The notes beneath the pieces were generated by a model that searched no databases, was not told the origin of the DNA, and was given only the letters and a program-made list of their open reading frames with translations. The position numbers and the translations under genes are program-made. Source: Sinohyriopsis cumingii (lineage: Eukaryota > Mollusca > Bivalvia > Unionida > Unionidae). Taken from it: 64,000 nt of DNA. Position 1 is the first letter of the stretch; each line of letters opens with the position of its first letter. Below are positions 13,685 to 35,622 of this stretch, in pieces. Location: positions 51,372,574-51,436,573 of the forward strand of contig CM068842.1 in NCBI GenBank assembly GCA_028554795.2. The letters are read 5' to 3'.

Positions 13685-13690
13685 TTTGGG

Positions 13691-14761: not shown

Positions 14762-14777
14762 GGCCCTTTTCAGGGCC
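14762..14777 (+). terminator. Histone-type mRNA 3' stem-loop, copy 1
   Basis: GGCCCTTTTCAGGGCC: 6-bp stem and UUUC loop, preceded by an A-rich stretch and followed by ACCCACA, then the purine-rich GAAAAGAGAT at 14791-14800. All of this is as in replication-dependent histone mRNAs, where SLBP binds the stem-loop and U7 snRNA pairs with the downstream element. Confidence 0.85.
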
Positions 14778-14936
14778 ACCCACATTTCTCGAAAAGAGAT
14801 AGCCTTTCAATTTGCCAATAACTCAAGAAAAAAAACAACCCATTTACCCCCTATAGTACGTGTCTTTGTATGAGTGCGTGAGTGTACGTTTTTGTTTTAA
14901 AATCAAAACTCAAAGACACTTACCTTATATCATTAA

Positions 14937-14942
14937 TTTATT
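14937..14942 (-). terminator. AATAAA polyadenylation signal of the zinc-knuckle gene
   Basis: AATAAA on the minus strand starts 3 nt after the stop codon of the gene ending at 14946. It contrasts with the stem-loop used by the convergent gene. Confidence 0.65.
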
Positions 14943-14945
14943 CTT

Positions 14946-15497
14946 TTATCCATTGTTACAATCCAATTCACAATTCACAACAGAACACTTTAATAAAAAG
15001 TTCATTGACTTCTTCTTTCTCCTTCTTAAGTCTCTCTGTTTTTTGAATTTCTTCACCGTTACACTCTTTTCCTCTTCTTCCTCCTCACTTTCTTCCCTTC
15101 TTCTTTTCTTCTCCTGTTTCTTTTTCTTCACCTGTCTGCTTTCTTCCTCTGAAAAATCCCTCTCTTCTTCCGAAGAATCCCTCTCTTCTTCTGAAGAATT
15201 CCTTTTTTCTTCTGACTCCTCTTGTTTCTTTTTTGGGCAATCTGGAGACCAATGTCCTTTTTCTTTACAGTAATAACAGGTATCTTGACTTTTGTCTTTT
15301 TTAGCCCCTGTTTTTGTTCTTTTTTGACGGTCTGGACACTCTGAAGACCAATTTTCTTTCTTCTGACAGATATAGCAAGTATCTTGACTTTTATCTCGAA
15401 AGGAAGGAGAGTAGTCCGTCGGCTGGTCTGAAGAGAATTTTCTAATGCCCCCTCGCAAAGCTCTGACGAACCGTTCCATCTGGGTAGTCTCTTCCAT
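14946..15497 (-). CDS. Gag-like protein with two zinc knuckles
   Basis: The protein has two CX2CX4HX4C-type knuckles, about 35 residues apart. The distal one is canonical (CYYCKEKGHWSPDC). The proximal one has Asn in place of His (CYICQKKENWSSEC). They are followed by Ser-Glu repeats (SSEEERD), a Lys/Glu-rich charged segment and a basic tail. Zinc knuckles bind single-stranded nucleic acid, as in retroviral Gag nucleocapsid. The frame is open from an earlier ATG at 15545, but a TATATAAAAG box at 15560-15551 lies only 6 bp from that ATG, so the second Met (15497, 183 codons) fits a TATA-driven transcript better. It is divergent from polB. Function in a Maverick is unknown; capture from a retroelement or host gene is possible. 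Confidence 0.8.
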   Translation of the reverse strand: MEETTQMERFVRALRGGIRKFSSDQPTDYSPSFRDKSQDTCYICQKKENWSSECPDRQKRTKTGAKKDKSQDTCYYCKEKGHWSPDCPKKKQEESEEKRNSSEEERDSSEEERDFSEEESRQVKKKKQEKKRRREESEEEEEEKSVTVKKFKKQRDLRRRKKKSMNFLLKCSVVNCELDCNNG

Positions 15498-15550
15498 CGT
15501 TGTGCTCGGTTTGAGAGTGAAATGAATAGTGAAAGGACAAGACACACACC

Positions 15551-15560
15551 CTTTTATATA
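15551..15560 (-). promoter_or_regulatory. TATA box of the zinc-knuckle gene
   Basis: TATATAAAAG on the minus strand. Its position decides for the internal ATG at 15497 rather than 15545. Confidence 0.7.
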
Positions 15561-15577
15561 CGCTGGTCTGCCATGAC

Positions 15578-15611
15578 TATAAATTAGTCTATGGTGCTTA
15601 AACTTGAGTCA
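15578..15611 (+). promoter_or_regulatory. polB promoter: TATA box and AP-1-like site
   Basis: TATAAAT at 15578-15584, 48 nt before the polB ATG, followed by TGAGTCA (AP-1 consensus) at about 15605. It is back to back with the zinc-knuckle promoter. Confidence 0.6.
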
Positions 15612-15631
15612 TTTGACGTTTTTCACTCAAG

Positions 15632-18600
15632 ATGAAACGATCCTATTCATTCGAGAAGAAAGAAGAAGAAGAAAGTAAGAGGCAGAAACGTGATCTATCG
15701 CCTCGTACCAGGGCTGAAATCTTGACACAAATTCATGCCAGTGATTTTGAAGAGGACATGAGTGAACCAGAATTTGAATCCTTTAAACCAAGTTCACCAC
15801 CCTTAGTCAACCCTGAAAAATACTATTCCATTCGAGAGACGGAAAAGCGCTCCTCTAGAAAATTTAGAACCACGGCTTACAAATGCACGGTGAAATTTAA
15901 AGATTTCAAGGCTGAAGTGCCGTTAGAGAAAGCAGAAGTGTTTATCACTGGAGTGTGGGATTCTTTGCTCACTGCACTCAAGCGACAATGTCAACCCAAA
16001 GAAGACGATCGCTTGAGACTTTCCATACAACACGACGGTTTGAAATCCCCTGTTTGGATCGAGTTTAGCACCCTTGCAGAATTGACCGCTTCCAAAGTCA
16101 TGGACAAGATACAACACGTACAACAATCTAATGACAAGTTTGACATCACCGATGGTAAAGCCACACTGGACATGACCCACGTCTCTCCTCCTCAAGGGAC
16201 TGGACGCAAAAAGATGTTATTGGTGGACGACCTTCGCAACACCAAAAAGAGTCTCGTCCGAATTAACAACACTCAAGACCAGATGTGTTTAGCCCGTGCC
16301 ATCGTGGTGGGACGAACCTATGCCGACAAGAACGACACGGTAGAATGGAAAAGAACCTGGAACACTATTCAACGTTCCGATCGAGCCAAACTACGAAACG
16401 AAGCAGAACTCCTGTTGCAACAAGCTGGACTGTCCAAAGACACACCCTGTGGCATTCCTGAGATGCAAAAATTGCAAGATGCCCTAGCTCCACGCTACAC
16501 CTTGAAAGTGCACCCTCAAGAAATGCGCGGGTCTCTGTTGTTTCGAGGCCAAGATTTTAAGGACGGAAAATACATTCATGTTTATTATCACGATGACCAT
16601 TTCGATACCATTACCACCTTCACCGGATTCCTGGGATACGGTTATTATTGTGAGAAATGTGATTATGGTTATAAAAATCGAGAGCAACACAAGCATTGTG
16701 GATCGAAATGCCCAGGATGTTTGGCCTCCCCACCCTGTCTGAGCGAACAACCAGTGCCTTGTTCAACTTGTCTGCGCACGTTTGTCAGCCCTACCTGTTA
16801 CCAACAACATTTGAAAACACAAGGTTCACAGCAGAAATATGCTTGTCAGCTGCTGAGATTGTGCCCTACCTGTGGACAAGGCATATGTACCAATACTGCC
16901 AAGGCACACGTATGTCGACGAAAGAAAAAATGTCACATTTGTCACCACATCGTGGACTTGGAACACCAATGCTACGTGCAAAAATACCAACCCCCACCAG
17001 AGAAAGAGGACGGTCACAAGAAGAAAGGCAATTTCATCTTTTTCGATTTCGAATGCATGCAAGAGACCGGCATTCACATTCCTAATTTCTGCGTGGCTCA
17101 TCGAGTGTGCGAGAAGTGTATTCAAGAACCTATCTTCAGTCATTGCCCTCACTGCAGCAAGATTCCTGGAGGACGTGAAAAAATCTTTCGGGGACCGAAC
17201 ACGCTAGCCGATTTCGCTCGATGGGTCTTAGACCCCGTCGACAAGACGTGGAGCCAAGAGGACATCGAACGTTACGGAGATTGTCATCGTCATGCCACGG
17301 TGATGGCTCACAATTTCTCCGGATACGATGGACAGTTTCTTTTGAGATACTATACGGAACAAGGCACCGAGCGTCCTAAAGTGACTTTGAACGGAGCCAA
17401 AATCATTTTCATGCAAGTGGGACAAGTGCAGTTTAAAGATTCGATAAGTTACTTGGCCATGCCTTTGAGTCGAATGCCTAAAACGTTTGGAATGACAGAA
17501 ATGACTAAAGGGTACTTTCCACACTTTTTCAATACGGAAGCCAATCAACACGCCGTTCTACCCCATTTGCCTGAGGCTCACTATTACGACCCCGACAACA
17601 TGCGTACCGAACAACGAGAAGCTTTCTACGCTTGGTACCAGGCTCACGCCTCGGACCCTTTCGACTTTCAGGAAGAAATGCTAAAGTATTGTCGTTCGAC
17701 GTGGACATTTTACGACGTTGCTGTGGAAAATTTCGAGAACTGTTCATGGAACACGGAGGGGTCGATCCTTTGAAAGAAGCTTGCACCATTGCCAAAGCGT
17801 GTTCCTTAGTGTATCGACAACGATTCATGCCTGAAAACACCGTGGCTGTCATCAGCCCACAAACTACCCACTATGTCAAACGTCAATACTCGGTCAAAGC
17901 CCTACGTTGGTTACATTACTTGTGCGACAAGGAAGACAAATGGATTCAGCATGCCCGCAACGGAGGGGGCGAAAAGACCATCGGAACGTATTCGGTCGAT
18001 GGCTGGGACTTAGAAAACCCCAAAATCGTGTACGAGTTTAACGGTTGCTTATTTCACGGATGTCCCGTTTGTTACCCTGACCGTGGCACTAAAAATCAGT
18101 TTTTGCAACGAACCATGGAAGACTTGTACCAGGACACTTGTCAGCGACGCCTAAAGTTAGAACAGCAAGGATACCAAGTGGTGGAAATGTGGGAACACGA
18201 GTACGATCACCGTATGAAAACTGATCCCGAGTTTAAACGCCTCGTGGAAAGTTACCAGTTCATGGACCCGTTGAACCCGAGGGATAGTTTTGTACGGAGG
18301 AAGGACCAATGCCATCTGTTTGCTGTACCAAGCCGACGAAGAGAAAGGAGAAGAAATCAAATACTTGGACGTGTGTTCGCTGTATCCCTACGTGTGCAAA
18401 TATTGTCGCTTTCCTCTAGGGCACCCGCAATTGTTAACGGAACACATCGACCTGAAAAACATTCGACAATACGAAATCTTGATCAAGTGCAAAGTTTTGC
18501 CTCCCACGAACCTATACCATCCCGTCTTACCTCACCATTGTCAAGGCAAACTGATGTTTCCCTTGTGCCGTACTTGTGCCGAAACGTGCAACCAAGACCA

Positions 18601-19696
18601 ATCTTGTCAGCACACCCAGGAAGAACGGGCCTTGACGGGAACCTGGGTCAGCGTAGAATTGTTCAAAGCTCTGGACATGGGATACCAACTGTTAGAAGTG
18701 TACGAAATTTGCTACTTTCCCAAGACACAACAATACCACAAGGGTGACCCTACTCAGAAAGGCATTTTCGCTGACTTCGTGGATGCCTTTTTGAAACTGA
18801 AACAAGAAGCCAGCGGCTATCCGTCCTGGTGTCACACTCCCGAAGACCAAATACAATTCAAAAAGAAATACTATGAACAAGAAGGCATCTCTTTAGATCA
18901 CATCGAGAAAAACGAAGGCAGGCGATCGTTTGCCAAAGTGATGTTAAATTGCTTGTGGGATAAAATGGCACAACGACCGTGTTTACCCAAGACGAAATAT
19001 TTGACAGAACTTTCCCGCTACTTCCAGATGATTCACGACAAAACCAAATACATGAAACACGTGGACGTCGTTCGAGAGAATTTGATCTTGGTCAATTACG
19101 AAGAAGATCTGGACTTTGTACAAGACGACCCTTTTGGAAATGTCATCATTGCGGCTTACGTGACAGCTCATGCTCGCTTAAAATTGTACGAAGCTTTAGA
19201 ACTGTTAGGGGAACGCGTCCTGTACTTTGACACGGACAGTTGCATTTACATCCATCACCCGATTCAACATCACCCTGACATCGAAGGAGACCGTTTAGGA
19301 GCCTGGACAGACGAGCATCCCGACGACAAGATTCTAAGTTTCGTCAGTGGCGGTCCCAAAAATTACGGCTACGAATACCGGGACAAACAAGGAGAAGTGC
19401 ACACGACGTGCAAAGTGAAAGGACTGACTCTGAATTATCGTACCAGTCGAGTGGTGAACTTTGGGGTAGTGAAAGAAGCCTTGCAATCGGGAGAGGATGC
19501 AAACTTTAAAGTGACCACTTACCAACCCAACAAGATTGTACGTTTACCCACTCACCACATCGTCAGTCGGCCCTTGGAAAAAGTCTATCAAATCGTGTAC
19601 CAGAAGCGAGTGCGACTTCCCAATCATTTCACCTTACCGTATGGACACATCGGTATTGGTCTGTATATAAAAAGGAACCCTAGGCAAGATCGATAG
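15632..19696 (+). pseudogene. polB: Protein-primed DNA polymerase B (two frameshifts)
   Basis: Replicates the linear element from a protein primer. Order of parts: a charged N-terminus; a Cys/His-rich region (about 16650-16990) with several CXXC pairs; Exo I FFDFE at about 17040; Exo II HNFSGYDGQF at about 17310; Exo III DVDILRR near 17700; polymerase motif A DVCSLYPYV at about 18365; motif B KVMLNCLWDKM at about 18940; motif C YFDTDS at about 19224; then the KVKGL region. Total length fits Maverick polymerases (over 1300 codons). The frame moves at about 17695 and returns at about 18290-18305, so motif Exo III to the start of the palm is in a different frame. In motif B an Asp stands where Gly is usual. 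The copy as written cannot encode a full enzyme. Confidence 0.92.
19664..19673 (+). promoter_or_regulatory. TATA box inside the polB 3' end
   Basis: TATATAAAAA lies within the last codons of polB, 56 nt before the ATG at 19729, and should drive the BIR region. Confidence 0.65.
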
Positions 19697-19728
19697 TTCA
19701 TTGGGACTACCAAGACCGAACGAACAAG

Positions 19729-19881
19729 ATGAATACTTTCAGAGAAATGCAAAACAAGTTGTTTAGAAAGGCACAATTCAAGTGTGGGGCTTCGGAAGTG
19801 GAATGCAATTGTGAGCCTTGCGATGGGTACGATGCTGTACCTTGTGACCTGAGCGATGGCGTAAAGCATCATGGAAAGTGA
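19729..19881 (+). CDS. Small Cys-rich reading frame upstream of the BIR gene
   Basis: 50 codons, the first ATG after the TATA box at 19664. It contains CNCEPC and further Cys. It overlaps the BIR frame by 11 nt in a different frame. It is either an independent small protein or the displaced N-terminus of the BIR protein after a frameshift. No family is recognised. Confidence 0.4.
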   Translation: MNTFREMQNKLFRKAQFKCGASEVECNCEPCDGYDAVPCDLSDGVKHHGK

Positions 19882-20338
19882 TGCTGTGCGTGTCAAACCC
19901 GAGGGATGCGAAAGGGATGCCGCTCGTCCTCTTGGACATTTTACTGGGTTTCGTTTTAAAGGGGAATGTTCACCTTCACGTCTACCCCACTACGGATGTC
20001 ATCCAGCCTTGAGCAAACTCCTGTTCCTGACACCCAACCCTTATCGAAACGAACCTGTGAAAGACGAATATTCGTTCCCTGTGCGTTTGTCGGAATACTG
20101 CGACTTTGAAAATCATCTTCAATCGTTCAAAGGAAAATGGCCTAAGTATCTGGGAGGACCGACCCCCGAAGAATTAGCCAGAGCCGGATTTTTCTACTTG
20201 AGCGAAGGAGATAAAGTGAAGTGCTTCAGTTGCGGTGTGTCACTTCACCACTGGGAACCGCAAGATTCGGCCTACGTAGAACATGCTCGATGGTCACCGA
20301 ATTGTCATTACTTACCCTTAGTGGGACCGAGACATTGA
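19871..20338 (+). CDS. BIR-domain (IAP-type) protein
   Basis: 155 codons. The C-terminal half is one baculovirus IAP repeat: residues about 75-147 with KWPKYL, LARAGFFYLSEGD, then zinc ligands Cys118, Cys121, His138 and Cys145 with the usual WEPQD segment between. BIR domains bind caspases or IAP antagonists, and viral copies restrain host apoptosis. No RING domain follows, so ubiquitin-ligase activity is not expected. The N-terminal 70 residues match nothing I know. It sits between polB and the F-box-like genes in the accessory zone and may start further upstream (see 19729). The domain call is strong; its target in the host is unknown. Confidence 0.88.
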   Translation: MESDAVRVKPEGCERDAARPLGHFTGFRFKGECSPSRLPHYGCHPALSKLLFLTPNPYRNEPVKDEYSFPVRLSEYCDFENHLQSFKGKWPKYLGGPTPEELARAGFFYLSEGDKVKCFSCGVSLHHWEPQDSAYVEHARWSPNCHYLPLVGPRH

Positions 20339-20363
20339 AGTAACTTCTTACCATAATCTGTTC

Positions 20364-20819
20364 ATGAATACTTTACAAGAGAACATTCGTGCTTTGCCTG
20401 TGGAGTTGAGAGAACGCATTTACCGAGAGCTGGTCAAAATACAAGTGAAACGTAAAGAACAATTGCATCCGTTACGTCACCGGTGTTTGAACCACTGGTA
20501 CCTGAAGGCTATACAAGGACTGATTCAATTGAAAGTGTTCCATCGGACAGACATTGATGAACGATCCTCTAGTTTTAAAAAGGATTGGTTTGGTATGGAC
20601 GATTCTACCTACATCATTGTAAACTTACTGCATCGAATTCCAGAGGAAGAGTTAACGAATTACCAACATCTTGAACACAATGTCAACTTAGTGAAAGAGG
20701 AAACTTCTCAACGAATTGTAATGTGTAGATTAGTGACTGAACGATTTAAATTCGACACTGAAGTAAAACCATGTTTGTGCAAACAGTACATTTCTTGTGT
20801 CAGACCAAAGAGGATTTAG
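20364..20819 (+). CDS. F-box-like paralogue 1
   Basis: 151 codons. The N-terminus ENIRALPVELRERIYRELVK has the LP.EL..RIY pattern of F-box and related short helical domains, which link substrates to SCF ubiquitin ligases. The rest (YQHLEHNVNLVKEETSQ and so on) is not recognised. First of three tandem paralogues (next at 20832 and 21067). The F-box assignment is an inference from a short motif. Confidence 0.65.
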   Translation: MNTLQENIRALPVELRERIYRELVKIQVKRKEQLHPLRHRCLNHWYLKAIQGLIQLKVFHRTDIDERSSSFKKDWFGMDDSTYIIVNLLHRIPEEELTNYQHLEHNVNLVKEETSQRIVMCRLVTERFKFDTEVKPCLCKQYISCVRPKRI

Positions 20820-20831
20820 TATGACCTATTC

Positions 20832-21104
20832 ATGGATACTTTGCTAGAGAACATTCGTACTTTGCCTGTGGAGTTGAGAGAACGCATTTACCGAGAACTG
20901 ATCAAAATACAAGTGAAACGCAAACTCAAAGTGATTCATCCGTTTTTAAATTATGCTATGTTCCAAAGTACAAGAAGACTGATTATAAGTGGATATTACA
21001 TTAGGCACAAAGTTAAACGAGGCTTTTGGCCACCACCTAACGATTCCAAAAACAGTGTATATACTTATGGATACTTTACAAGAGAACATTTTGGGCTTGC
21101 CTGA
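20832..21104 (+). CDS. F-box-like paralogue 2, truncated
   Basis: 90 codons. Residues 1-30 are nearly identical to paralogue 1 (NIRTLPVELRERIYREL). After about residue 33 similarity becomes weak, and the frame runs on over the start of paralogue 3 (ATG 21067). It lacks the C-terminal half of its siblings, so it looks like a decayed or shortened copy that could still make a small protein. Confidence 0.5.
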   Translation: MDTLLENIRTLPVELRERIYRELIKIQVKRKLKVIHPFLNYAMFQSTRRLIISGYYIRHKVKRGFWPPPNDSKNSVYTYGYFTREHFGLA

Positions 21105-21486
21105 GGAGTTGAGAGAAAGGATTTACCGAGAGCTGGTGAAAATACAAGTGAAACGTAAAGAACAATTGCAATTTTTACGTCACCAGATCTTTAACCACTG
21201 GTACCTGAATGGTATAAGAGGACTGATTCGTCAGAAATTTTTTCAGTGGTCAGACCTTGTTGAACACTTTCAGTTTGTGGATGATGATGGACCAGACGTT
21301 CGCAATTTTGGTTACTTCGAGATTCACTTACTGCAACGTATTGAGGAAGACGAGTTAAAGGATTACCAACATTTGTTACATGGAATCTGCTTAGAAAAAG
21401 ACGAAACATCTAGACAAACTCTGACGTTTCAATTACGGTATGTAACATTTAAATTCCCTACTGGAGAACGAACACGTTTGGTTTGA
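21067..21486 (+). CDS. F-box-like paralogue 3
   Basis: 139 codons from ATG 21067. The frame is open from an earlier alternative start, but the paralogues fix this Met. It begins MDTLQENILGLPEELRERIY and shares HWYLNGIRGLI and DYQHLLHGICLEKDETS with paralogue 1 (roughly half identical overall). Its divergence from paralogue 1 implies an old duplication kept for some time. Function is inferred as for paralogue 1. Confidence 0.65.
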   Translation: MDTLQENILGLPEELRERIYRELVKIQVKRKEQLQFLRHQIFNHWYLNGIRGLIRQKFFQWSDLVEHFQFVDDDGPDVRNFGYFEIHLLQRIEEDELKDYQHLLHGICLEKDETSRQTLTFQLRYVTFKFPTGERTRLV

Positions 21487-21535
21487 AATTACAATTATTG
21501 CTTCCGAAACAAAGACACTATAAAATCAAGTTGCC

Positions 21536-21760
21536 ATGCCGCGGATTGTGTCACATATCATTGAACAGATTCCGTGGAAGGTACTCAATGACCATATTCA
21601 AACCGTGGATCATTACCATCAATTATTACAAGAACTGTATCCATTCAATTTGGGACGACAAGTGGTGTGTGTCGTAGTGACTTGTTTTCTGGGATTTCGT
21701 TTACCAGCCGATTCCTTGTGGACTCTTTACGATCAGTACTTGCCACCTCAATGGCCTTAA
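21536..21760 (+). CDS. Small unknown protein
   Basis: 74 codons, directly after a TATAAAA box (about 21519). It contains a moderately hydrophobic middle (VVCVVVTCFLGF). It overlaps the next gene by 10 nt. No family is recognised. The short TATA-to-ATG distance makes the start uncertain. Confidence 0.4.
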   Translation: MPRIVSHIIEQIPWKVLNDHIQTVDHYHQLLQELYPFNLGRQVVCVVVTCFLGFRLPADSLWTLYDQYLPPQWP

Positions 21761-22258: not shown

Positions 22259-22270
22259 AAAAAGACATTC

Positions 22271-25133: not shown

Positions 25134-26822
25134 ATGCCTCGAAAGTGTGTTAATACCGCGGACAATTTTTGCTATATTTGTGGGGAAGTGACATTTGCCA
25201 ACCAGAAGAAAAGTATCAATTCTCAAGTGAAGAAGGCATATCATCTTTACTTCGGATGCAAGGTTGGTGACCAAGACAAGCCTTGGGCTCCGCATATATG
25301 CTGTGCTACATGTACAACACAGCTTTCACAGTGGTTGAATTGCAAAAGGTCATCAATGCCGTTTGCAGTCCCAATGGTGTGGAGAGAGCCAAGCAACCAC
25401 CTAAATGACTGTTACTTCTGCTTGGTTCCTCCTCTTTCCGGCGGAATAACGAAGCGAAAGAAGTCGAGAATAGTCTACCCAAACATTCCGTCTGCATTGA
25501 GACCAGTTCCACATGGTGAGGGACTTCCTATTCCAGAACCTCCAGCAGAATATTCTCTTGATTCATCTGACGAAGACAAAGGTGAGTCGACCTGTTCTTC
25601 TCCTGGTCCATCAGCATGCAGTGATCCAGATTTTCACTGTGGTGCATCATCAACCCCACACAGAATAACACAGGAAGAACTAAATGACCTGATTCGTGAT
25701 TTGGACTTATCAAAGAACAAGGCAGAATTGCTAGGATCAAGACTCCAACAATGGAATCTTCTAGAAGAAGATGTCACAATTACTGCATATCGAAAGCGCC
25801 ACCAGCAATTGGAGCCTTTCTTCAGAAAGGAAAGTAATCTGATATTCTGTTCCGATATTGAGGGCCTCATGAATGCTTTAAAAATCACTCATGACCCACA
25901 AGAATGGAGACTATTTGTGGACTCTTCGAAACTGAGTCTCAAGGCTGTGCTTTTGCACAATGGAAACATTCTTCCATCTATTCCAGTAGCGTATGCTGTC
26001 CACATGAAAGAGACATACGATAACTTAAGGCAGCTACTGAATTCCATTGAGTATAACAAGTACAGCTGGCACCTCTGTGGTGATTTGAAGGTAGTTGCCC
26101 TTTTAATGGGACTGCAGCAAGGATATACAAAATACATGTGTTTCTTATGCGAGTGGGAGAGCCGAGCAAGGGAAATGCACTACATGAGGAAGGAATGGAC
26201 TCACAGGCAGAATGTAGCCATTGGAGAGAAGAATATCCAACACCCAGCTCTGGTTGAGGCTCAGAAAATCTTGCTACCACCCCTTCACATCAAACTAGGT
26301 TTGATGAAGAACTTCGTGAAAGCCATTGACCGGACTTTGCCAGCATTCCGATACCTGCATGAAAAATTCCCTCGACTCAGCGAAGCAAAGATTAAAGAGG
26401 GAGTTTTTGTGGGTCCTCAGATTCGAGAGCTTTTCAAAGATGACTGGTTCAACAACTTGCTGGAAGGTGACGCGAAACAAGCATGGAATGCTTTTCGCCT
26501 AGTTTCTACAAACTTCCTCGGAAATGTTAGGGCAGAAAACTATAAGGAACTAGTAGAAGACATGTTGATGAAGTATAAGAAACTTGGCTGCAATATGTCT
26601 CTAAAGATTCACTTCCTTCATTCCCATTTGGATTTCTTTCCTAGCAACTGTGGTATTGTTAGTGATGAACACGGCGAACGTTTTCATCAAGATATCGCAA
26701 CAATGGAACAAAGATACCAGGGAAAATGGTCCACTACAATGCTGGCTGACTACTGCTGGACACTCCTCAGAGATGCTCCCGAACAGCTGTACAAGAGACA
26801 GGTGAAGAAATCTAAGATGTAG
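25134..26822 (+). CDS. Transposase-like protein of the nested transposon
   Basis: 562 codons, uninterrupted, unlike many of the surrounding Maverick genes. The N-terminus has a zinc-binding Cys pattern (CYICGE, CATC around residues 14-65), comparable in spacing to ZAD-like or THAP-like fingers. The centre has FVDSSKLSLKAVLLHNG (about residue 262), CGDLKVVALLMG (about 316) and CFLCEWESR (about 338), followed by LGLMKNFVKA and, near the C-terminus, VSDEHGERFHQ. Conserved Asp/Glu in these blocks are candidates for a DDE-type catalytic centre. I have seen similar proteins in many invertebrate genomes as repeated uncharacterised genes but cannot name the superfamily. An intact frame suggests recent activity. 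Confidence 0.6.
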   Translation: MPRKCVNTADNFCYICGEVTFANQKKSINSQVKKAYHLYFGCKVGDQDKPWAPHICCATCTTQLSQWLNCKRSSMPFAVPMVWREPSNHLNDCYFCLVPPLSGGITKRKKSRIVYPNIPSALRPVPHGEGLPIPEPPAEYSLDSSDEDKGESTCSSPGPSACSDPDFHCGASSTPHRITQEELNDLIRDLDLSKNKAELLGSRLQQWNLLEEDVTITAYRKRHQQLEPFFRKESNLIFCSDIEGLMNALKITHDPQEWRLFVDSSKLSLKAVLLHNGNILPSIPVAYAVHMKETYDNLRQLLNSIEYNKYSWHLCGDLKVVALLMGLQQGYTKYMCFLCEWESRAREMHYMRKEWTHRQNVAIGEKNIQHPALVEAQKILLPPLHIKLGLMKNFVKAIDRTLPAFRYLHEKFPRLSEAKIKEGVFVGPQIRELFKDDWFNNLLEGDAKQAWNAFRLVSTNFLGNVRAENYKELVEDMLMKYKKLGCNMSLKIHFLHSHLDFFPSNCGIVSDEHGERFHQDIATMEQRYQGKWSTTMLADYCWTLLRDAPEQLYKRQVKKSKM

Positions 26823-28742: not shown

Positions 28743-28747
28743 CCATC

Positions 28748-29164: not shown

Positions 29165-30096
29165 GTCACCAAAACCAATTTTACTTAACCTTACCCAGTG
29201 ACAGTTCCATGGAGGTGTTTCCCCACAACACGTTGTGCTGTTACACGGCCAAATTACCTCAGGCCATCCCCTTAGATCACGAAGCCCATTGGGAAGTGGC
29301 TTTAGTGGAAATGATTCACCCGACCCAAGTCCTCAATGTCCTTCCCAATCAAAATTATTTTACGGTGGAAGTTTATGACGAACAATCGCAACAGTGGATG
29401 GATACCCATAGCAAATATGACAAGAAAACCCGTTTACAAAATCAAAAGTACACCACCTATCACTTGTTCATTCCCCCAGGCTATTATTTTAGTGGCCAAC
29501 ATTTGGTCAGCACCATAGCCACCAGGTTTAATGGCGTGTTTCTGAAAGCTTTGGAAAGTGTCAATAAAGGTATCGTCACCCTGGAGTACCACAAAACAGC
29601 TCGTCGCTTCCTGATAAAATTTCCTGAGGGGCGTAAAATCATGTCTTTCTTATTTTGTCCTGAATTGTTTGACATGTTGGGCTGAGACATGGAGCTGAGG
29701 AAGAAAGTAGAACAAAAACCCGAATTACCAATCATTGCCGACAACGAGACTTTTGCCAAGTATTTTCGTACCCCGGTAGAACTGAACCAAGGACTGAATT
29801 TGATCTTTGTTTACTCCGATGTGGTGGAGTATAACGTGGTGGGACACACCTCCGTACCGTTACTGCGTGTCATTCCTTTCAAAGTGGATTCTGCCACGAA
29901 CGCTGACGAGGAAGGTGGAAACACTTACCACGTTCACCGCGAATTTGTCCATCCTCACTATTTGCCTGTCAGCAAGTCGTATTTGGACACGGTCAACATT
30001 ACTATAAAAGGAGATTTGGGACAAAATATTCCATTCACCAAAGGAAAAATCACGGTGAAACTCCATTTTCGAAAACGGTTCTCTCACGACTCGTAA
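29161..30096 (+). pseudogene. Minor capsid (penton-like) protein, interrupted by one in-frame TGA
   Basis: First part (174 codons, ending MLG then TGA at 29683-29685) contains EVFPHNTLCCYTAKLP, EVALVEMIHP and FIPPGYYFSG, the typical start of Maverick single jelly-roll penton-like proteins (N-terminal beta strands, YxP loop). The same frame resumes immediately, with LNLIFVYSDVVEYNVVGHTS and LLRVIPF and a C-terminus ITVKLHFRKR, which is the second half of the same domain. One nonsense codon therefore splits an otherwise intact gene of about 311 codons. The protein forms capsid vertices. Stop readthrough is an alternative, with no sequence support beyond the clean frame. Confidence 0.85.
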
Positions 30097-30103
30097 GTAA
30101 GTC

Positions 30104-30520
30104 ATGTATCCAGTGTACCCAGGGGTTGCTCGACAGCGAGGACACGGTTTAGGAGATATGTTAAAATCGGCCTTTCGTTCGGTGGCCCCAGTATTGAAAC
30201 CGATGGTGACACGCGGATTGCAGGCCTTGAAAGATGCGGCACTGACGCAAGGCAAAGAATTTCTCCAAAATGTCATCATAGACAAACAAAACCCTAAAGA
30301 AGCTTTCATGAGGGCAGACAAAAATGTCTTGCTGCAAACGGGCAAAGACATTTTGGGCCGACGAGACACACCTATAAATGCCCTGCACGCTACCGAATCA
30401 GGCATTCAGCAAGGACAAGGCAGAAAGAGACGACGAAGAAAACACCCTTTCACCAGACTTCAAGCTAGAAAGGCCAAGAAAAGAAGAACCGTTCGAGACT
30501 TAGACGTTTTCGATTATTGA
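30104..30520 (+). CDS. pVI-like minor virion protein
   Basis: 138 codons. N-terminus RQRGHGLGDMLKSAFRSVAP is an amphipathic helix after a Gly-rich motif, as in adenovirus pVI and its Maverick relatives, where it disrupts membranes during entry. The C-terminus (RKRRRRKHPF ... RKAKKRR) is strongly basic and may bind DNA or carry nuclear signals. A TATAAAAG box at 30003-30010 inside the previous gene could be its promoter. It lies between the minor and major capsid genes, the usual place. Function is by analogy. Confidence 0.72.
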   Translation: MYPVYPGVARQRGHGLGDMLKSAFRSVAPVLKPMVTRGLQALKDAALTQGKEFLQNVIIDKQNPKEAFMRADKNVLLQTGKDILGRRDTPINALHATESGIQQGQGRKRRRRKHPFTRLQARKAKKRRTVRDLDVFDY

Positions 30521-30533
30521 AACACAGAGAAAA

Positions 30534-31823
30534 ATGATGCACCGAGAGTCTTGCGCTTGTTCCAAGACGGAACTGGATCTGTTTGCCATGCCCCCCACCA
30601 TGATGACGATGCAAGAATCCCAGTGGGTGGAATTTCACCCCGTCTCCTCATTGACAGCCTCAGCTCCCATCGAGTTTGAAATCAAAGGACAGCCCGAAGA
30701 TTACATCGATCTGAATAGCAGTTACTTGTACTTGAAAGTCAAAGTTGTCGATGAGGACAATTCGACCCTAGATGGCGATGAGGTAATAGCTCCCGTCAAC
30801 AATTTCTTGCATTCCTTGTTTAGCGGTGTGGACTTGTACTTGAACAACAAACTGGTCAGCAGCAGCATGGATACTTACCCTTATCGAGCGTACCTGGAAA
30901 ATCTCTTGACGTACGGAATAGACGCCAAGAATACTCATCTCAATGCTTGTGTGCTGTGGGAACCTGACGAAGGGGGCAAGTTTGACACAACTGACAATCA
31001 CGGCTATGAGGAAAGACGAAACAAAATCAAAAATGGACAAAGTTTAGAACTGATGGATCGTTTACATCTGGACATGTGGTTGCAAGAGAAATATTTGCTA
31101 AACGGGGTGAATGTTCGCCTGAGACTGAATCGTAGCAGTGCCGCCTTCCATTTGATAGGTACTACTGTTTGCAAAACTGTCATCGAGGAAGCCAGGCTCT
31201 ACGTACGCCGTGTGGAAGTGTTACCTAAAGTGGGAAACGACATCAGTCAGACGTTGAGCAGAACGACCGCCAAGTATCCCATACGACACGTGGAAGTGAA
31301 AACGTTCACCATTCCCAAGGGACAGCGATCCATGATCGAAGATCATCTGTTCCAAGGACAGCTACCCAAACGTTTAATCCTTGGTATCGTCGAGAATGAT
31401 GCCTTCAACGGAGTTTTGGGTAAAAATCCTTTCCACTTTCAACACTTTGGCGTGTCCAAGATCGAAGTCAGTCGCGATGGCAAGACCTTGTGTACCCGAC
31501 CTTTCGAACCTGACTTTGAGAAGAAGAATTACTTGAGATCGTACTTGTCCCTGTACGAAGCCACCGGCCAGTTAGGAACCAACACCAGTCACGGCATTAC
31601 GTACGAGGATTACGCAGGAGGTTATGCTTTGTGGGCTTTCGATTTCACTCCAGACCAAGGCAGCGACGAGGGACATTTCCACCCTATAAAATCGGGCCAG
31701 ATTCGTGTGGAAATTCAGTTTGCAAACCGAGACCCTGATGTAACGGTGAACGTCATCCTGTATGCCGAATTCGATAATACCATAGAAATCAACAGTTTGA
31801 GAGAAGTCATTCTAGATTACTAG
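30534..31823 (+). CDS. Major capsid protein (double jelly-roll)
   Basis: 429 codons, uninterrupted. Starts with ESCACSKTELDLFAMPPTMM, the conserved N-terminus of Maverick major capsid proteins, followed by FHPVSSLTASAPIEFEIKG, DLNSSYLYLKVKV, FLHSLFSGVDLYLNNKLV and YPYRAYLENLLTYG, the first jelly roll. The C-terminus includes FDFTPDQ and VRIEIQFAN-like VEIQFANRDPDVTV. Such proteins build icosahedral capsids of trimers, like adenovirus hexon. It is at the short end for the family, as in adintoviruses. TATAAAT at 30373 is a possible promoter. It appears fully intact. Confidence 0.93.
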   Translation: MMHRESCACSKTELDLFAMPPTMMTMQESQWVEFHPVSSLTASAPIEFEIKGQPEDYIDLNSSYLYLKVKVVDEDNSTLDGDEVIAPVNNFLHSLFSGVDLYLNNKLVSSSMDTYPYRAYLENLLTYGIDAKNTHLNACVLWEPDEGGKFDTTDNHGYEERRNKIKNGQSLELMDRLHLDMWLQEKYLLNGVNVRLRLNRSSAAFHLIGTTVCKTVIEEARLYVRRVEVLPKVGNDISQTLSRTTAKYPIRHVEVKTFTIPKGQRSMIEDHLFQGQLPKRLILGIVENDAFNGVLGKNPFHFQHFGVSKIEVSRDGKTLCTRPFEPDFEKKNYLRSYLSLYEATGQLGTNTSHGITYEDYAGGYALWAFDFTPDQGSDEGHFHPIKSGQIRVEIQFANRDPDVTVNVILYAEFDNTIEINSLREVILDY

Positions 31824-31828
31824 AAGCC

Positions 31829-32314
31829 ATGGAAGACTGTTATCCCTCTTTACCTAGTGGAGAAACTTTGGACATGGAATGTAAGGAGACTGTGGAAGAA
31901 GAAGAAGTGATCATGATGAAGTCGAGATGGCCAGAACAAGAAGCCCATTTAGTCTCCTGTTTTGCCAAACACTTGGCTGAAAAAATAACAGAATTGGTCA
32001 AGAAAAATTGCTATGGATGTCAAAACGATCATCCCAGTCAAATTCAACACGATAAATGCCTGATGTTAAGTCAAGAAGAAAAATTGGACGAGTATCTGGA
32101 CGAAGCTTGGAGTCTCATCTCGGACAAAGACGTGTTGCATCAGTGGTATAAAGACTTGCATGAACATTCTTGTCCACCATTAACCACTCAAGAGATCCAT
32201 CGTATCGAAGCTCTCCTGAATCAGAGTGAGGAGACGAAACGAAGAAACGGTTATTTGTCAGACATTTTCAAGCAAAAAGTCAGGATCGAATTGACGACGT
32301 ATTATTACCTGTAA
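31829..32314 (+). CDS. Conserved Maverick Cys-motif protein
   Basis: 161 codons, starts 5 nt after the capsid stop. Acidic N-terminus, then CYGCQNDHPSQIQHDKCLM (about residues 66-84), a GC..DHPSQ..H..C block that recurs in Maverick elements and looks like a zinc site. The rest is helical and charged. Biochemical function is unknown; the position suggests a virion or assembly role. Confidence 0.75.
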   Translation: MEDCYPSLPSGETLDMECKETVEEEEVIMMKSRWPEQEAHLVSCFAKHLAEKITELVKKNCYGCQNDHPSQIQHDKCLMLSQEEKLDEYLDEAWSLISDKDVLHQWYKDLHEHSCPPLTTQEIHRIEALLNQSEETKRRNGYLSDIFKQKVRIELTTYYYL

Positions 32315-32339
32315 AGAAGAAAAAACAACACAGAAAACA

Positions 32340-32900
32340 ATGGATACCTGGGAACTTTATTACCTTTTGAACCACAGTTCGTATACGGCTTCTTGGAATC
32401 CTGTCGTCTGTGCTAAAAATGAACTCCCTCATCGCAAACCTCAAGACCATCAAGCTTACGTGATCAACACGGACGACAGTCATCTCCCAGGAACCCACTG
32501 GGTAGCCGTCTACTTTCCTCAAGAAGGATGTGTGGAATATTTCGATTCGTACGGATTGCCCCCTTTGGAAGACGATATCATTGACTTTATGAGAAGAAAT
32601 GCTCAGACCACCCGATTCAATAATGTGAAATTACAAGGCACAGATTCCTTGGTGTGTGGACAATATTGTGTGTATTTTCTGCATCATCGCAGTCTGGGCT
32701 ATTCCTTAGAACATTTAGTAACTCATTTTGATCCTCGTTCGTCTACTAGAAACGATGTGAAAGTAGATCAATGGTTTTGTGACCATCATGCTTATCTTTT
32801 GTCTCAAGCTAGGAAACGTAGTGTCAATCAATGGCCTAATGCTTTCCAACAGTGGAAATCACAATTTCATTCACAACTTTGTCAGCCCTGTTTAATGTAG
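32340..32900 (+). CDS. Adenain-type cysteine protease
   Basis: 186 codons. Catalytic His in GTHWVAVYF (about residue 59), the Asp position in EYFDSYG (about residue 75), and catalytic Cys in LVCGQYCVYFLHHR (Cys-Gly-Gln-Tyr-Cys, about residue 110), the order and spacing of adenovirus-type (C5) and Ulp1-like proteases. It matures virion precursor proteins such as pVI and pX. Length is normal for the family, and the frame is intact. AATAAA follows at 33019. Confidence 0.92.
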   Translation: MDTWELYYLLNHSSYTASWNPVVCAKNELPHRKPQDHQAYVINTDDSHLPGTHWVAVYFPQEGCVEYFDSYGLPPLEDDIIDFMRRNAQTTRFNNVKLQGTDSLVCGQYCVYFLHHRSLGYSLEHLVTHFDPRSSTRNDVKVDQWFCDHHAYLLSQARKRSVNQWPNAFQQWKSQFHSQLCQPCLM

Positions 32901-33154
32901 ACTGTATTTGAAGAAAAATGTTTGATGTTTTGAAGAAAAAAATGTTTGATGTTATCATGTTGGATTATTGTTAAAAAATATGTCAGAAATGTTGTTGTTT
33001 AGTGTTAAGTGATTTTTGAATAAAAAAATGTTGTGTTTTGAAAAAAAATGCCTTTGTGGTTTGTTTAGCTATAAGAATGTTGGATTGATGCTCTTTCATT
33101 TCTTACTATCCCTCTCATAACACTCATTGAACGTTGCCACTCGAAAACCGTGTG
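32901..33154 (+). other. AT-rich 3' region of the protease gene
   Basis: Contains two direct copies of GAAGAAAAA(A)ATGTTTGATG (about 32910 and 32932) and AATAAA at 33019-33024, the likely polyadenylation signal. No gene. Confidence 0.6.
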
Positions 33155-33184
33155 GGGGGATGTTTTCCTTCACGTCCGCGCTTT
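33155..33184 (+). promoter_or_regulatory. Right-end promoter box, copy 1
   Basis: GGATGTTTTCCTTCACGTCC followed by GCGCTTT, then a weak TATA-like TTTAAGA. The same box occurs at 34037 and 34955, each just upstream of a TATA element and a small coiled-coil gene, and without a gene at 34884. Confidence 0.75.
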
Positions 33185-33247
33185 GACTTTAAGAACCGGG
33201 GTTGTTTCCAGTCTAACCATCCATTGTCGACTCATCCTCCTACGAAG

Positions 33248-33430
33248 ATGTGCTCCAAACTAGCTAAGCTCAACGAAGCCTACGTGAATTTGCATAGGGT
33301 CAGACACAGTCTGATACCGAAGCCAGAAGAAATAGAGAACGTGAGAATGCTAAAAGTCACTGAAGACCTGATAGAAGAGCTCTTCAGAGAAGAAGTGAAC
33401 AGGGAGAAAGAAGAATGGACAGAGAAGTAA
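33248..33430 (+). CDS. Small coiled-coil protein, right-end cassette 1
   Basis: 60 codons from ATG 33248. MCSKLAKLNEAYVNLHRVRH resembles the start of the cassette 2 protein (MSSRLSKLIELQMHLEYAI), and an acidic/basic helical segment follows (EELFREEVNREKEEW). It is much shorter than cassette 2; the following poly-Gln frame (33447-33629) may be its displaced C-terminal part, so a frameshift is possible. The histone-type stem-loop at 33658 closes the cassette. Confidence 0.55.
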   Translation: MCSKLAKLNEAYVNLHRVRHSLIPKPEEIENVRMLKVTEDLIEELFREEVNREKEEWTEK

Positions 33431-33446
33431 AGAGAAGTACATACTT

Positions 33447-33629
33447 ATGAGACAGCAGCAGCAACAGCAACAACAACAACATCAGCAGCAGCAGCAGCAG
33501 CAACCTGAACCTGACAGAGGCTTTGTCGATTGCCGTATCGACACCAAAGAGTTCTTCTTCTCTTTCCGAAGAAGCAGACCTATTGCCAGAAAGTCTATAA
33601 TCAGAGGACATCGCATTCTTAGAAACTAA
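33447..33629 (+). CDS. Poly-Gln reading frame of cassette 1
   Basis: 60 codons starting MRQQQQQQQQQHQQQQQQQP over a CAG/CAA repeat, then FRRSRPIARKSII. It is in another frame than 33248-33430, and its ATG follows 16 nt after that stop. It could be the end of the cassette 1 protein after an indel, a separate product, or noise. CAG-repeat instability would explain frame changes. Confidence 0.3.
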   Translation: MRQQQQQQQQQHQQQQQQQPEPDRGFVDCRIDTKEFFFSFRRSRPIARKSIIRGHRILRN

Positions 33630-33657
33630 AAAAAGAATGCCATAGCAAACAAAAAAC

Positions 33658-33673
33658 AGCCCTTTTAAGGGCT
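33658..33673 (+). terminator. Histone-type mRNA 3' stem-loop, copy 2 (A-U variant)
   Basis: AGCCCTTTTAAGGGCT: the outer G-C pair is replaced by A-U on both sides, the loop is UUUA. A flank ACCCAAT and a purine-rich TAAAAAAGAAATA follow at about 33685. Confidence 0.82.
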
Positions 33674-34036
33674 ACCCAATACTCTAAAAAAGAAATAACC
33701 ATCGATTTGCCAATGTGTGTAGGTAGAGTAGTGTGAATATAAACATTAACTCTTTATTGATAGTGAGAGTGTATGTGTTTGTGTGTTTGTGTTTGTAAGA
33801 GTTTACGTAAGTTTGTGTGAATAGTAGATTAAAATAATGTCTTTTTTTGGTGTTTGAGGTGTATATTTGGGGTTAGATTGGATTGCTTTGGGTATGTAAA
33901 TAGTCTATTGAAGTGATTTATAAAAAATTTTAAAATAGTGATGGGTAGCATAAAAAAGTGAGTGAGTGTTTCTTTTAGGTCCGCGCATTGTTAGGTCATG
34001 ATCTAGGTAAGATCAATTTTATGTTTTTTAGGGGAG
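33674..34036 (+). other. Spacer between cassettes 1 and 2
   Basis: T/G-rich DNA with GTGTGTTTGTGTTTGTAAG at about 33781, matched after cassette 2 by a similar stretch. The segment TTGTTAGGTCATGATCTAGG (33989) recurs at 34911. No gene. Confidence 0.6.
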
Positions 34037-34074
34037 GGGATGTTTTCCTTCACGTCCGCGCTTTCAGTATAAAT
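34037..34074 (+). promoter_or_regulatory. Right-end promoter box copy 2 with TATAAAT
   Basis: GGATGTTTTCCTTCACGTCC then GCGCTTTCAG and TATAAAT at 34068-34074, 62 nt before the ATG at 34136. Confidence 0.78.
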
Positions 34075-34135
34075 CGAAACTCGCTGGACAGTTTAGCTAC
34101 CCTTGTTGATTGTTCAACAGTAAAAAAGGAGTAGA

Positions 34136-34624
34136 ATGAGCAGCAGACTGAGTAAATTGATAGAACTTCAGATGCATCTGGAGTATGCCATATGCCTCCT
34201 GAATGAGCTGGCTGCAGAGGCCCTTGTGGAAGAAGCCAGGATCGAACAAGAGGAAGAAGAAAGAAAACTGAAAGAAGAGGAAGAAAAGAAGAGAGGGATA
34301 AGGTCTCACGTGTTCATGATAGAGAAATGTGAGGTGAAGCCCTGGGTGATGGAACCTCCACAGGCAATGACTGCACCACAGTTACAACCACAAGAAGAGG
34401 TAAGGAGACCAATTGTTCATCCTCGAATGAGGAATAGAAGACAAAGAAGACAAAGGGAAGAAGAAGAAATGTTCACTATTCCGCAAACGGAGGAGTGGGA
34501 TAGTGAAGCCACTCACCCCCGTCAGCTCTTCCAACAACTTCAGTCAATTGGACCAATGATTGGAGTAGGCGTTGTGTCTGTGGTGCCAGACCCGGAAGGT
34601 GCCACCATTAACGAGGGTCTCTGA
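34136..34624 (+). CDS. Coiled-coil protein, right-end cassette 2
   Basis: 162 codons. N-terminal helix MSSRLSKLIELQMHLEYAIC, Glu/Lys-rich coiled coil (about residues 30-60), a basic patch PRMRNRRQRRQREEEE (about residues 100-115), then EEWDSEATHPRQLFQQLQ and a Gly/Val-rich end. No enzymatic motif. Preceded by the shared promoter box and followed after 14 nt by a histone-type stem-loop. The family relation to cassettes 1 and 3 rests on shared promoter and 3' end plus similar N-terminal layout; protein similarity is weak. Confidence 0.72.
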   Translation: MSSRLSKLIELQMHLEYAICLLNELAAEALVEEARIEQEEEERKLKEEEEKKRGIRSHVFMIEKCEVKPWVMEPPQAMTAPQLQPQEEVRRPIVHPRMRNRRQRRQREEEEMFTIPQTEEWDSEATHPRQLFQQLQSIGPMIGVGVVSVVPDPEGATINEGL

Positions 34625-34638
34625 AGTTAAAAACAAAC

Positions 34639-34654
34639 AGCCCTTTTCAGGGCT
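34639..34654 (+). terminator. Histone-type mRNA 3' stem-loop, copy 3 (A-U variant)
   Basis: AGCCCTTTTCAGGGCT: A-U outer pair and UUUC loop, followed by ACCCCAAT and the purine-rich AGAAAAGAAAT at about 34669. Confidence 0.85.
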
Positions 34655-34954
34655 ACCCCAATACTCTAGAAAAGAAATAACGATCCATTTGCCAATGTGT
34701 GTAGGTAGAGTAGTGTGAATATAAACACCAACTCTTTATTGATAGTGGAAGTGTATGTGTTTGTGTGTTGTGTTTGTGTTTGAAACTGTTCACGTAGGTT
34801 TGCGTGAATAGTAGTTTCTTTATTAGTTCTTAGCGTATGTGGAGAGTATAGTTTTGGTTTTATTATATGAAATGAGAAAGTAGGGGGATGTTTTCCTTCA
34901 GGTCCGCGCGTTGTTGGGTCATGATCTAGGTAAGATCAATTTTATGTTTTAGGC
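34655..34954 (+). other. Spacer with an extra promoter box
   Basis: Repeats the GTGTATGTGTTTGTGTG spacer of cassette 1. At 34884-34909 it holds a promoter box (GGATGTTTTCCTTCAGGTCC then GCGC) with no gene directly after it, followed by TTGTTGGGTCATGATCTAGG. This looks like a left-over of a deleted or collapsed cassette. Confidence 0.6.
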
Positions 34955-34992
34955 GGGATGTTTTCCTTCACGTCCGCGCTTTCACTATAAGA
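34955..34992 (+). promoter_or_regulatory. Right-end promoter box copy 3 with TATAAGA
   Basis: GGATGTTTTCCTTCACGTCC then GCGCTTTCAC and TATAAGA at 34986-34992, 40 nt before the ATG at 35032. Confidence 0.75.
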
Positions 34993-35031
34993 ACCCACAG
35001 TATTCGTCGTTCAAACCATTCTACAAAGAAG

Positions 35032-35376
35032 ATGGCTTCTAACCAAATTGACAAGATGCAAACATTGCAAGAGGTTTTAGACAATTTAGGAATGATGGAA
35101 CAGATGTTAATAAGACTGGTTGAAGACCACTATTCCTATAGTCCCCATCGTGTAAAGATGGAAATTAATAACTTGAGAAAGGTAAAGGACAAGATAAGTG
35201 GCGTTATGAAAGAGATAAAGGAGGAGAAGGAGGATGAAGAGGAAAGGATAAGAATACGCAAATGGAACGAAAAAATTGAAAAAGAAGAAGAAAATGAGAA
35301 GAGGAAGAAAGAAGAGGAGGAAGATAAGAAAGAAGAGGAGGAGAAAAAAAGAAAGAAAAGAAGAGAAAGAGTGTAG
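35032..35376 (+). CDS. Coiled-coil protein, right-end cassette 3
   Basis: 114 codons. N-terminus LQEVLDNLGMMEQMLIRLVE is helical, then an almost pure Glu/Lys/Arg segment (residues 62-114) likely to form a long charged helix. It ends at TAG in 35374-35376, 68 nt before a stem-loop. A shifted frame (35276-35599) continues the Lys/Glu-rich run past this stop, so an indel may have shortened the protein. Function is unknown. Confidence 0.62.
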   Translation: MASNQIDKMQTLQEVLDNLGMMEQMLIRLVEDHYSYSPHRVKMEINNLRKVKDKISGVMKEIKEEKEDEEERIRIRKWNEKIEKEEENEKRKKEEEEDKKEEEEKKRKKRRERV

Positions 35377-35444
35377 GAGAGAAAATAAGAAGTTGGTGGA
35401 GAAAAAGAAGAAATTAGAAGCTGAAGAAGAAGAAGAAAAACCAA

Positions 35445-35460
35445 GGCCCTTTTCAGGGCC
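35445..35460 (+). terminator. Histone-type mRNA 3' stem-loop, copy 4
   Basis: GGCCCTTTTCAGGGCC with flank AGCCATAT and purine-rich GAAAAGAGA at 35474-35482. It closes cassette 3. Confidence 0.83.
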
Positions 35461-35572
35461 AGCCATATTTCTAGAAAAGAGAATGACTTTTCAATTGCCT
35501 GAAAAGAGTGCTGATTTACGGACCAACAGTGAGACGCAGCCTAAGGACAAGAAGAAGACCAATGCGGTGCCA

Positions 35573-35600
35573 TTTATGTTAATGAATACATTAACATAAA
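35573..35600. repeat. Perfect palindrome within right TIR
   Basis: TTTATGTTAATG, loop AATA, CATTAACATAAA: the same 12-bp stem as at 13691-13718. Confidence 0.85.
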
Positions 35601-35606
35601 CCCAAA

Positions 35607-35622
35607 GGCCCTTTTCAGGGCC
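35607..35622 (+). terminator. Histone-type mRNA 3' stem-loop, copy 5 (right TIR)
   Basis: GGCCCTTTTCAGGGCC, flank AGCCATAT, purine-rich GAAAAGAGA at 35636-35644. It belongs to the Arg-rich gene remnant in the TIR. The segment 35443-35500 is a near duplicate of 35605-35666. Confidence 0.82.

Follow-up and report, generated by a model that had tools for sequence, protein, structure and literature searches.

Why should small genes at the two edges of a virus-like transposon end in the manner of histone genes? The question arises from a Maverick/Polinton element of the bivalve Sinohyriopsis cumingii, located in a stretch of 64,000 nucleotides (nt) (GenBank assembly GCA_028554795.2, contig CM068842.1, positions 51,372,574 to 51,436,573 of the forward strand) that is called the window here and in which all coordinates are counted. 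In replication-dependent histone genes, a 3' stem-loop is bound by SLBP, an element downstream of it is paired by the U7 small nuclear RNA, and CPSF73 cuts between the two (PMC7026596). A preliminary description of this DNA had reported five such stem-loops on the terminal genes of the Maverick, and the analysis presented here bears it out: the 3' ends of the edge genes match those of host histone genes down to the downstream element, and they are kept across copies. It is quite probable that the edge genes, left and right, rely for their expression on the replication-dependent histone gene programme of the host.

Histone-type 3' ends of the edge genes

The element, its terminal repeats and its histone-type 3' ends occupy the following positions.

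13375 to 35922: Maverick/Polinton, 22,548 base pairs (bp), with AGT...ACT ends and a 6-bp duplication, TACACC, at 13369-13374 and 35923-35928
13375 to 13795: left terminal inverted repeat, its outer end with 45-nt tandem repeats
35496 to 35922: right terminal inverted repeat, which holds the hairpin at 35607
14762 to 14777, + strand: stem-loop 1; Rfam match 14757-14802, 41.8 bits; downstream element GAAAAGAGA at 14791-14799
33658 to 33673, + strand: stem-loop 2, first pair A-U; downstream element at 33684-33696
34639 to 34654, + strand: stem-loop 3, first pair A-U; downstream element at 34666-34678
35445 to 35460, + strand: stem-loop 4, just outside the right inverted repeat; downstream element at 35471-35483
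35607 to 35622, + strand: stem-loop 5, within the right inverted repeat; downstream element at 35633-35645
about 13639 to 13693, - strand: sixth histone-type 3' end, in the left inverted repeat past the stop of the 77-residue gene; stem damaged in the window copy

All 64 kb were scanned with cmscan at E <= 5, which returned 19 matches over all families. Five of these belong to Rfam RF00032 (Histone3, gathering score 34), all on the + strand and at the five sites given above, scoring, from left to right, 41.8, 33.5, 29.8, 32.2 and 33.9 bits (E 6e-9 to 1.7e-4). The covariance model thus recovers every hairpin of the preliminary description, but only one of the five (the match at 14757-14802) passes the gathering score, whereas all 75 scored matches in the genome do so. 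The stems begin exactly where they had been placed, at 14762, 33658, 34639, 35445 and 35607, and each consists of six Watson-Crick pairs, closing a UUUC loop at four sites and a UUUA loop at 33658. The 3' flanks are, in the same order, ACCCA, ACCCA, ACCCC, AGCCA and AGCCA, in agreement with the ACCCA-type flank reported for three of them. A purine core, CTAGAAAAGA, begins 10-11 nt past the stem at all five sites with no more than one mismatch (a perfect match at 34639 and 35445, a single mismatch at each remaining site), and its GAAAAGA part lies about 13 nt past the stem, the distance that had been given for a purine-rich element. Perfect 6-bp hairpins with a TTYH loop number 12 in the window on both strands, and a histone-like stem with histone-like flanks occurs in only these five.

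The hairpins stand behind small genes at the edges of the element, of which those at the right end, R1, R2 and R3, are gene 1, gene 2 and gene 3 in the comparison of copies. Lengths are in amino acids (aa), ORF denotes an open reading frame and pI the isoelectric point.

13709 to 13942, - strand: left edge gene, 77 aa, pI 11.7, 15 Arg; TATAAATA upstream
14162 to 14734, + strand: left edge gene, 190 aa, rich in Q, E and K; 20 homologues in public proteins
33248 to 33430, + strand: edge gene R1, first ORF
33447 to 33629, + strand: edge gene R1, second ORF, 60 aa, pI 11.6; stop 28 nt ahead of stem-loop 2
34136 to 34624, + strand: edge gene R2, 162 aa, acidic, no Pfam family
35032 to 35376, + strand: edge gene R3, 114 aa

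Each hairpin was said to lie shortly after the stop of such a gene, and the gaps from stop codon to stem (27, 28, 14, 68 and 7 nt by position) agree with this; however, the hairpin at 35607 is inside the right inverted repeat, and gene 3 has a single hairpin in 10 other copies. On the sense strand, AATAAA or ATTAAA is not found within 150 nt past any stem: it first appears 155 and 215 nt past two of the stems, and after the other three it is absent up to 36000. AATAAA is present at the ends of the CCHC gene and the protease gene of the same Maverick. The sixth hairpin is intact in 3/3 left ends recruited through the other left hairpin (L018, L019 and L038), the remaining left ends having been selected for the sixth hairpin itself.

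The host histone genes provide the closest comparison. A genome search with PF00125 gave 662 candidates, of which 150 were scored, mainly in tandem arrays that repeat about every 8.3 kb, and one repeat unit (L079) was compared with the Maverick. It has H3, H4, H2B, H2A and H1 on one strand, with Histone3 scores of 35.9, 37.7, 38.2, 39.4 and 35.0 bits, respectively. H2B carries GGCCCTTTTCAGGGCC, letter-identical to the window sites at 14762, 35445 and 35607; H3, H4 and H2A share this stem but not the final base of the loop, and H1 differs in the third pair, so that the stem is common to 4/5 genes. The core CTAGAAAAGA also lies 10-11 nt past the stem in H3, H4, H2B and H1 (4/5; not H2A), with the spacing seen in the Maverick, and the gaps from stop to stem in this unit are 27-38 nt. 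Around the hairpin at 35445, the match to the H2B 3' end is 85% over 54 nt. At the level of sequence, the Maverick 3' ends fit those of host histone genes in hairpin, downstream element and layout, unlike them in that the first pair is A-U in two Maverick genes. The best Maverick copy (45.6 bits) fits the general metazoan model better than does the L079 unit, with its maximum of 39.4.

That copy came from a search of the 2.9-Gb genome with RF00032, which gave 589,472 loose candidates and 75 scored matches, all above the cut-off. Of the 75 loci, 30 were retrieved, and every one (30/30) lies within a copy of this Maverick; five histone peptide motifs were sought in 3 kb of each of the 30, and none was found. 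These loci were selected by their hairpin, a selection that does not extend to the other hairpins in the same loci. Among loci chosen for the neighbouring hairpin, the hairpin at the 14762 position is intact in 10/13 (alignment >1500 nt) and that at the 34639 position in 9/12 (alignment >=299 nt).

A second sample was chosen by the gene of the protein that we take, from gene position, to be the capsid. This gene has at least 98 copies that are 94-100% identical, 94 of the 98 listed being free of internal stops, and the expansion of the Maverick is accordingly large and apparently young. Ten of the 98 listed copies, from several chromosomes and identity classes, were taken with 3 kb of right end each. 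A six-pair hairpin (G-U counted) is present at gene 1 in 10/10, at gene 2 in 9/10 and at gene 3 in 10/10, for a total of 29/30; the exception is the gene 2 hairpin of one copy (L078), with one A-C mismatch. For each of the 19 hairpins of genes 2 and 3, the longest ORF with its stop in the preceding 150 nt leaves a gap of 12-43 nt to the hairpin; three of the 19 ORFs are short (37-46 aa). The ORF of gene 1 falls outside the retrieved stretch. The target-site end was seen in 7/10 copies, with seven different flanking hexamers, and these are therefore separate insertions.

Within this sample, the pairwise identity of the gene 3 hairpin is 0.989, as compared with 0.59-0.62 in coding sequence 60-180 nt upstream and 0.48-0.64 more than 60 nt downstream; the corresponding values for gene 2 are 0.975 (L078 excluded) and, in coding sequence 60-180 nt upstream, 0.65-0.71. 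The downstream element has an identity of 0.98-1.0 in gene 2 and 0.89 in gene 3. Pair changes among the copies are one-sided and keep the pairing (C-G to U-G, G-C to G-U), and between genes the first stem pair is G-C in some and A-U in others, a two-sided change. Chance hairpins are excluded by covariance scores, flanks, strand, position and conservation. The stretch 60-100 nt past the starts of the gene 1 and gene 2 hairpins (33647-33787 and 34629-34769 in the window) is also conserved, at 0.94-0.95.

A histone promoter motif upstream of the right-end genes

The resemblance to histone genes is found at the 5' side as well. A 23-nt motif, GATGTTTTCCTTCACGTCCGCGC, which is absent from the preliminary description, precedes edge genes R1-R3, and the promoter features of the element are as follows.

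33159 to 33181, + strand: 23-nt histone promoter motif of R1
34039 to 34061, + strand: 23-nt histone promoter motif of R2, TATA 6 nt downstream
34957 to 34979, + strand: 23-nt histone promoter motif of R3, TATA 6 nt downstream
34887 to 34909, + strand: one-mismatch copy of the 23-nt motif
33969 to 33986, + strand: TTTCTTTTAGGTCCGCGC, a second motif, identical to an 18-nt stretch of the host H4 promoter
13943 to 14161: divergent promoter region, read by eye, with CCAAT boxes, TGACGTCA and TATA boxes facing both left genes

In the L079 unit, the 23-nt motif occurs in the H2B promoter with one mismatch and in the H1 promoter with two, and a five-mismatch match lies upstream of H2A on the opposite strand; matches with up to six mismatches number three in the real unit and one in 100 first-order Markov shuffles. 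All 10 right ends of the capsid-chosen sample contain three copies of the motif (at most three mismatches), covering genes 2 and 3, and in two of the three TATA follows at exactly 6 nt. The stretch retrieved does not reach the gene 1 promoter. The pairwise identity of the motif is 0.957 at gene 2 and 0.94 at gene 3, against 0.80 (a modest difference) and 0.42-0.54, respectively, in coding sequence beyond 100 nt.

The exact H2B version of the motif has 6101 sites in the genome, part of them in histone arrays, and its reversed control has none. Among 100 listed sites, all on C1, at least four have the start of a scored capsid gene 3.5-4.3 kb upstream, as have the gene 2 and gene 3 promoters in the window; the same 100 include 18 same-strand pairs 736-1032 bp apart, the distance between the gene 2 and gene 3 promoters in the window being 918 bp. 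The core of the motif, ACGTCCGC, resembles the binding site of HINFP, an activator of H4 genes and a candidate binder of this core; a look-up of the HINFP consensus in the literature gave none. The Maverick probably acquired these regulatory pieces from a host histone gene, with H2B as the closest match in the one unit examined.

Compared with metazoan replication-dependent histone genes, as represented by that unit, the Maverick edge genes are alike in stem, loop, downstream element, spacing, stop-to-stem distance and promoter motif, whereas they code for no recognisable histones. Histone-derived coding sequence was considered as a candidate and rejected: Pfam gave no histone family for the edge proteins submitted, the product of the second R1 ORF not being among them, and by this measure the coding sequences are not recognisable as histones. 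The very basic 77-aa product of the left edge is perhaps a DNA-packing protein.

Proposed use of the histone programme and other explanations

The components of the histone locus body include HiNF-P, NPAT, SLBP and U7 (PMC3771687). If the edge genes use this machinery, a histone-gene activator and histone locus body factors would switch them on at G1/S; SLBP would bind the Maverick stem-loop, the U7 small nuclear ribonucleoprotein would pair with the downstream element, and CPSF73 would cleave between them. The resulting edge mRNA would be non-polyadenylated, and would be made and stable only during host DNA replication. In this way the Maverick, which has its own DNA polymerase gene, would make its edge products when nucleotides and replication factors are available. 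Coupling of the edge genes to S phase, as the preliminary description envisaged, is made more likely because a histone promoter motif precedes the right-end genes. With regard to U7, the purine core of mouse H2a is AAAGAG and the U7 Sm site is AAUUUGUCU (PMC7026596). Since the two cores are nearly the same, a U7 able to pair with the histone element of the host would be expected to pair with that of the Maverick as well. Duplex energies were computed with a U7 candidate that had been selected for that complementarity and are hence circular, and neither of the two candidates matches Rfam U7.

Several observations weigh against expression through the histone programme. Four of the five window hairpins, at 29.8-33.9 bits, are slightly below the Rfam cut-off, and the Maverick flanks (ACCCA, ACCCC or AGCCA) differ from those of the host histone genes (ACACA, ACAAA, ATACA and ACTTT). 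A host U7 was not found: a genome search with RF00066 gave no match, its control being equally silent, and a U7 pattern search gave two genome matches as compared with four in its control. The divergent promoter at the left end is without the 23-nt motif, and its CCAAT, TGACGTCA and TATA are common elements. A broken pair is present in 3/13 of the loci aligned at the 14762 position and in 3/12 of those aligned at the 34639 position. In the capsid-chosen copies, identity falls to 0.81-0.83 in the five bases just past the stem at genes 2 and 3, and 5-11% of 2124 right-end segments of 16 nt are at least as conserved as the hairpins (gene 2 being 0.966 in this comparison); other right-end signals are therefore also kept. 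Because gene 1 is conserved throughout, its hairpin tells little, and because of shared descent the copies are not independent tests.

Related Mavericks, to which the preliminary description had looked for a test, give a divided answer, in that the hairpin is present in each copy set examined in the host genome but lacking in four distant relatives. These are genome contigs (L005-L008) in which no Histone3 match was obtained at E <= 1, a further point on the opposing side. L005 ends 1.3 kb past its capsid gene, and L006 and L007 have interrupted capsid frames; L008 has long open frames and 7.6 kb past its capsid match, but is only 27% identical.

One might instead suppose that an ancestral Maverick took up pieces of a histone gene, and that these signals have since spread with the copies without being used. 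The similarity to the H2B 3' end, which extends somewhat past the core (85% over 54 nt), would accord with this, as would the relatedness of the copies in one genome, whose conservation is not independent in each; moreover, ribosomal RNA genes captured by such elements have been deemed probably not functional (PMC12220804). However, the hairpins of genes 2 and 3 and the promoter of gene 3 are less diverged than the coding sequence near them, the gene 2 promoter (0.957 versus 0.80) only modestly so. In addition, several genes terminate in the hairpin, with examples at either end of the element and on either strand, and the promoter motif and the 3' end occur on the same right-end genes at working distances. 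We consider such passive carriage improbable.

A decoy function appears very unlikely. The chief use of the signals would then be to soak up SLBP, U7 or the promoter factor and thereby disturb the host histone supply, the edge proteins being secondary. In its favour one might cite the genome's 6101 copies of the motif, some of which belong to histone arrays. Silenced copies, however, would not take up factors, and an ORF stop 12-43 nt ahead of all 19 hairpins of genes 2 and 3 (three of the longest ORFs having only 37-46 aa) is what use in mRNA would lead one to expect. Virophages use 3' hairpins to mark cleavage and polyadenylation. Least likely of all are hairpins that mark cleavage and polyadenylation by virus-coded enzymes, as described for Mimiviridae (PMC4402537), where a transcript-end hairpin is likewise the 3' end mark and where hairpins just past stop codons in a virophage relative would find a parallel; against this, stem, loop, downstream element and spacing agree with those of host histone genes, Histone3 matches are at the edge genes only (other kinds of hairpin after the remaining genes not having been searched for), AATAAA stands at two other genes, and no polyadenylation enzyme is among the 19 proteins given to Pfam, a subset of the ORFs.

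Returning to expression through the histone programme, we lean, with less assurance, towards a wider proposition: that a many-copy virus-like element disguises a set of its genes at either end as histone genes, by promoter motif and 3' end, and so adds a second class of poly(A)-free protein-coding mRNA in metazoans, made at the histone locus body and tied to replication, whose copies could compete for host histone-specific factors. If true, this would account for the way in which a self-replicating element matches the timing of its genes to the replication of host DNA, and would offer a natural experiment on the sequences sufficient for histone-type expression. Libraries of poly(A)-selected RNA would then be expected to miss the transcripts of the edge genes.

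The element, its relatives and earlier reports

The element resembles other Maverick/Polinton elements in its 6-bp target-site duplication, inverted repeats, PolB, retroviral-type integrase, ATPase-like, protease-like and capsid genes. In a Pfam search of 10 Maverick proteins, DNA_pol_B_2, rve with Chromo, BIR and zf-CCHC were above the cut-off, and Pox_A32 (ATPase-like) and Peptidase_C5 (protease-like) below it. The putative capsid protein has no Pfam match and 1761 homologues, and the animal-named relatives among the 120 listed are bivalves, namely Mercenaria, Crassostrea, Ostrea and Saccostrea. The capsid genes of the four distant relatives, L005-L008, are Maverick-like; their contigs are deposited as bacterial genomes (endosymbionts of Escarpia and Bathymodiolus; Breoghania; Rickettsiaceae) and are probably eukaryotic DNA.

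Viral contigs yielded no relatives by capsid protein, and neither a 21-nt metazoan stem-loop pattern nor the promoter motif matched in them; among four exact 17-mer matches, only one weak Histone3 match was obtained (L003, 24.8 bits, below the cut-off). The preliminary description knew of no report of such ends in Mavericks. This has to be amended, since six "histone 3'UTR stem-loop" matches were counted, at Rfam gathering cut-offs, in 8300 genomes of Polinton-like viruses (PLV) and virophages, none of them in cryptophyte elements (PMC12220804); the section that gives the count leaves them undiscussed. Those matches belong to the same Rfam family, and PLV in that work includes capsid-coding polintons, whereas the section names no host, gene, position, downstream element, promoter or function. 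Beyond this count, no description of histone-type gene ends with histone promoter motifs in a Maverick/Polinton was found by a search that left most subscription papers outside, and the accessible parts of the literature on viral use of histone-type ends turned up only an artificial expression system and reovirus particles; nothing on the subject was found in PMC12721341. A Histone3 match in SARS-CoV-2 (PMC7786107) is of the same family, but it has 14.7 bits, far under the cut-off of 34, and lies in a coding gene. In Mimiviridae, viral enzymes polyadenylate the hairpin-marked transcripts (PMC4402537), whereas the Maverick signals are of host histone type.

Finally, several internal genes of the window copy have features of their own.

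14946 to 15497, - strand: CCHC zinc-knuckle protein with acidic stretches, convergent with the gene at 14162; AATAAA directly past the stop, unlike the hairpin genes
15632 to 19696, + strand: DNA polymerase region, broken across more than one frame in the window copy
19871 to 20338, + strand: BIR-domain (inhibitor of apoptosis) protein within the Maverick
20364 to 21486, + strand: three tandem paralogues, alike at the start (MDTLxEN...LPVELRERIYREL type), the first without a Pfam match
25134 to 26822, + strand: ORF of 562 aa with a cysteine-rich start and no Pfam match, located between the ATPase and integrase genes

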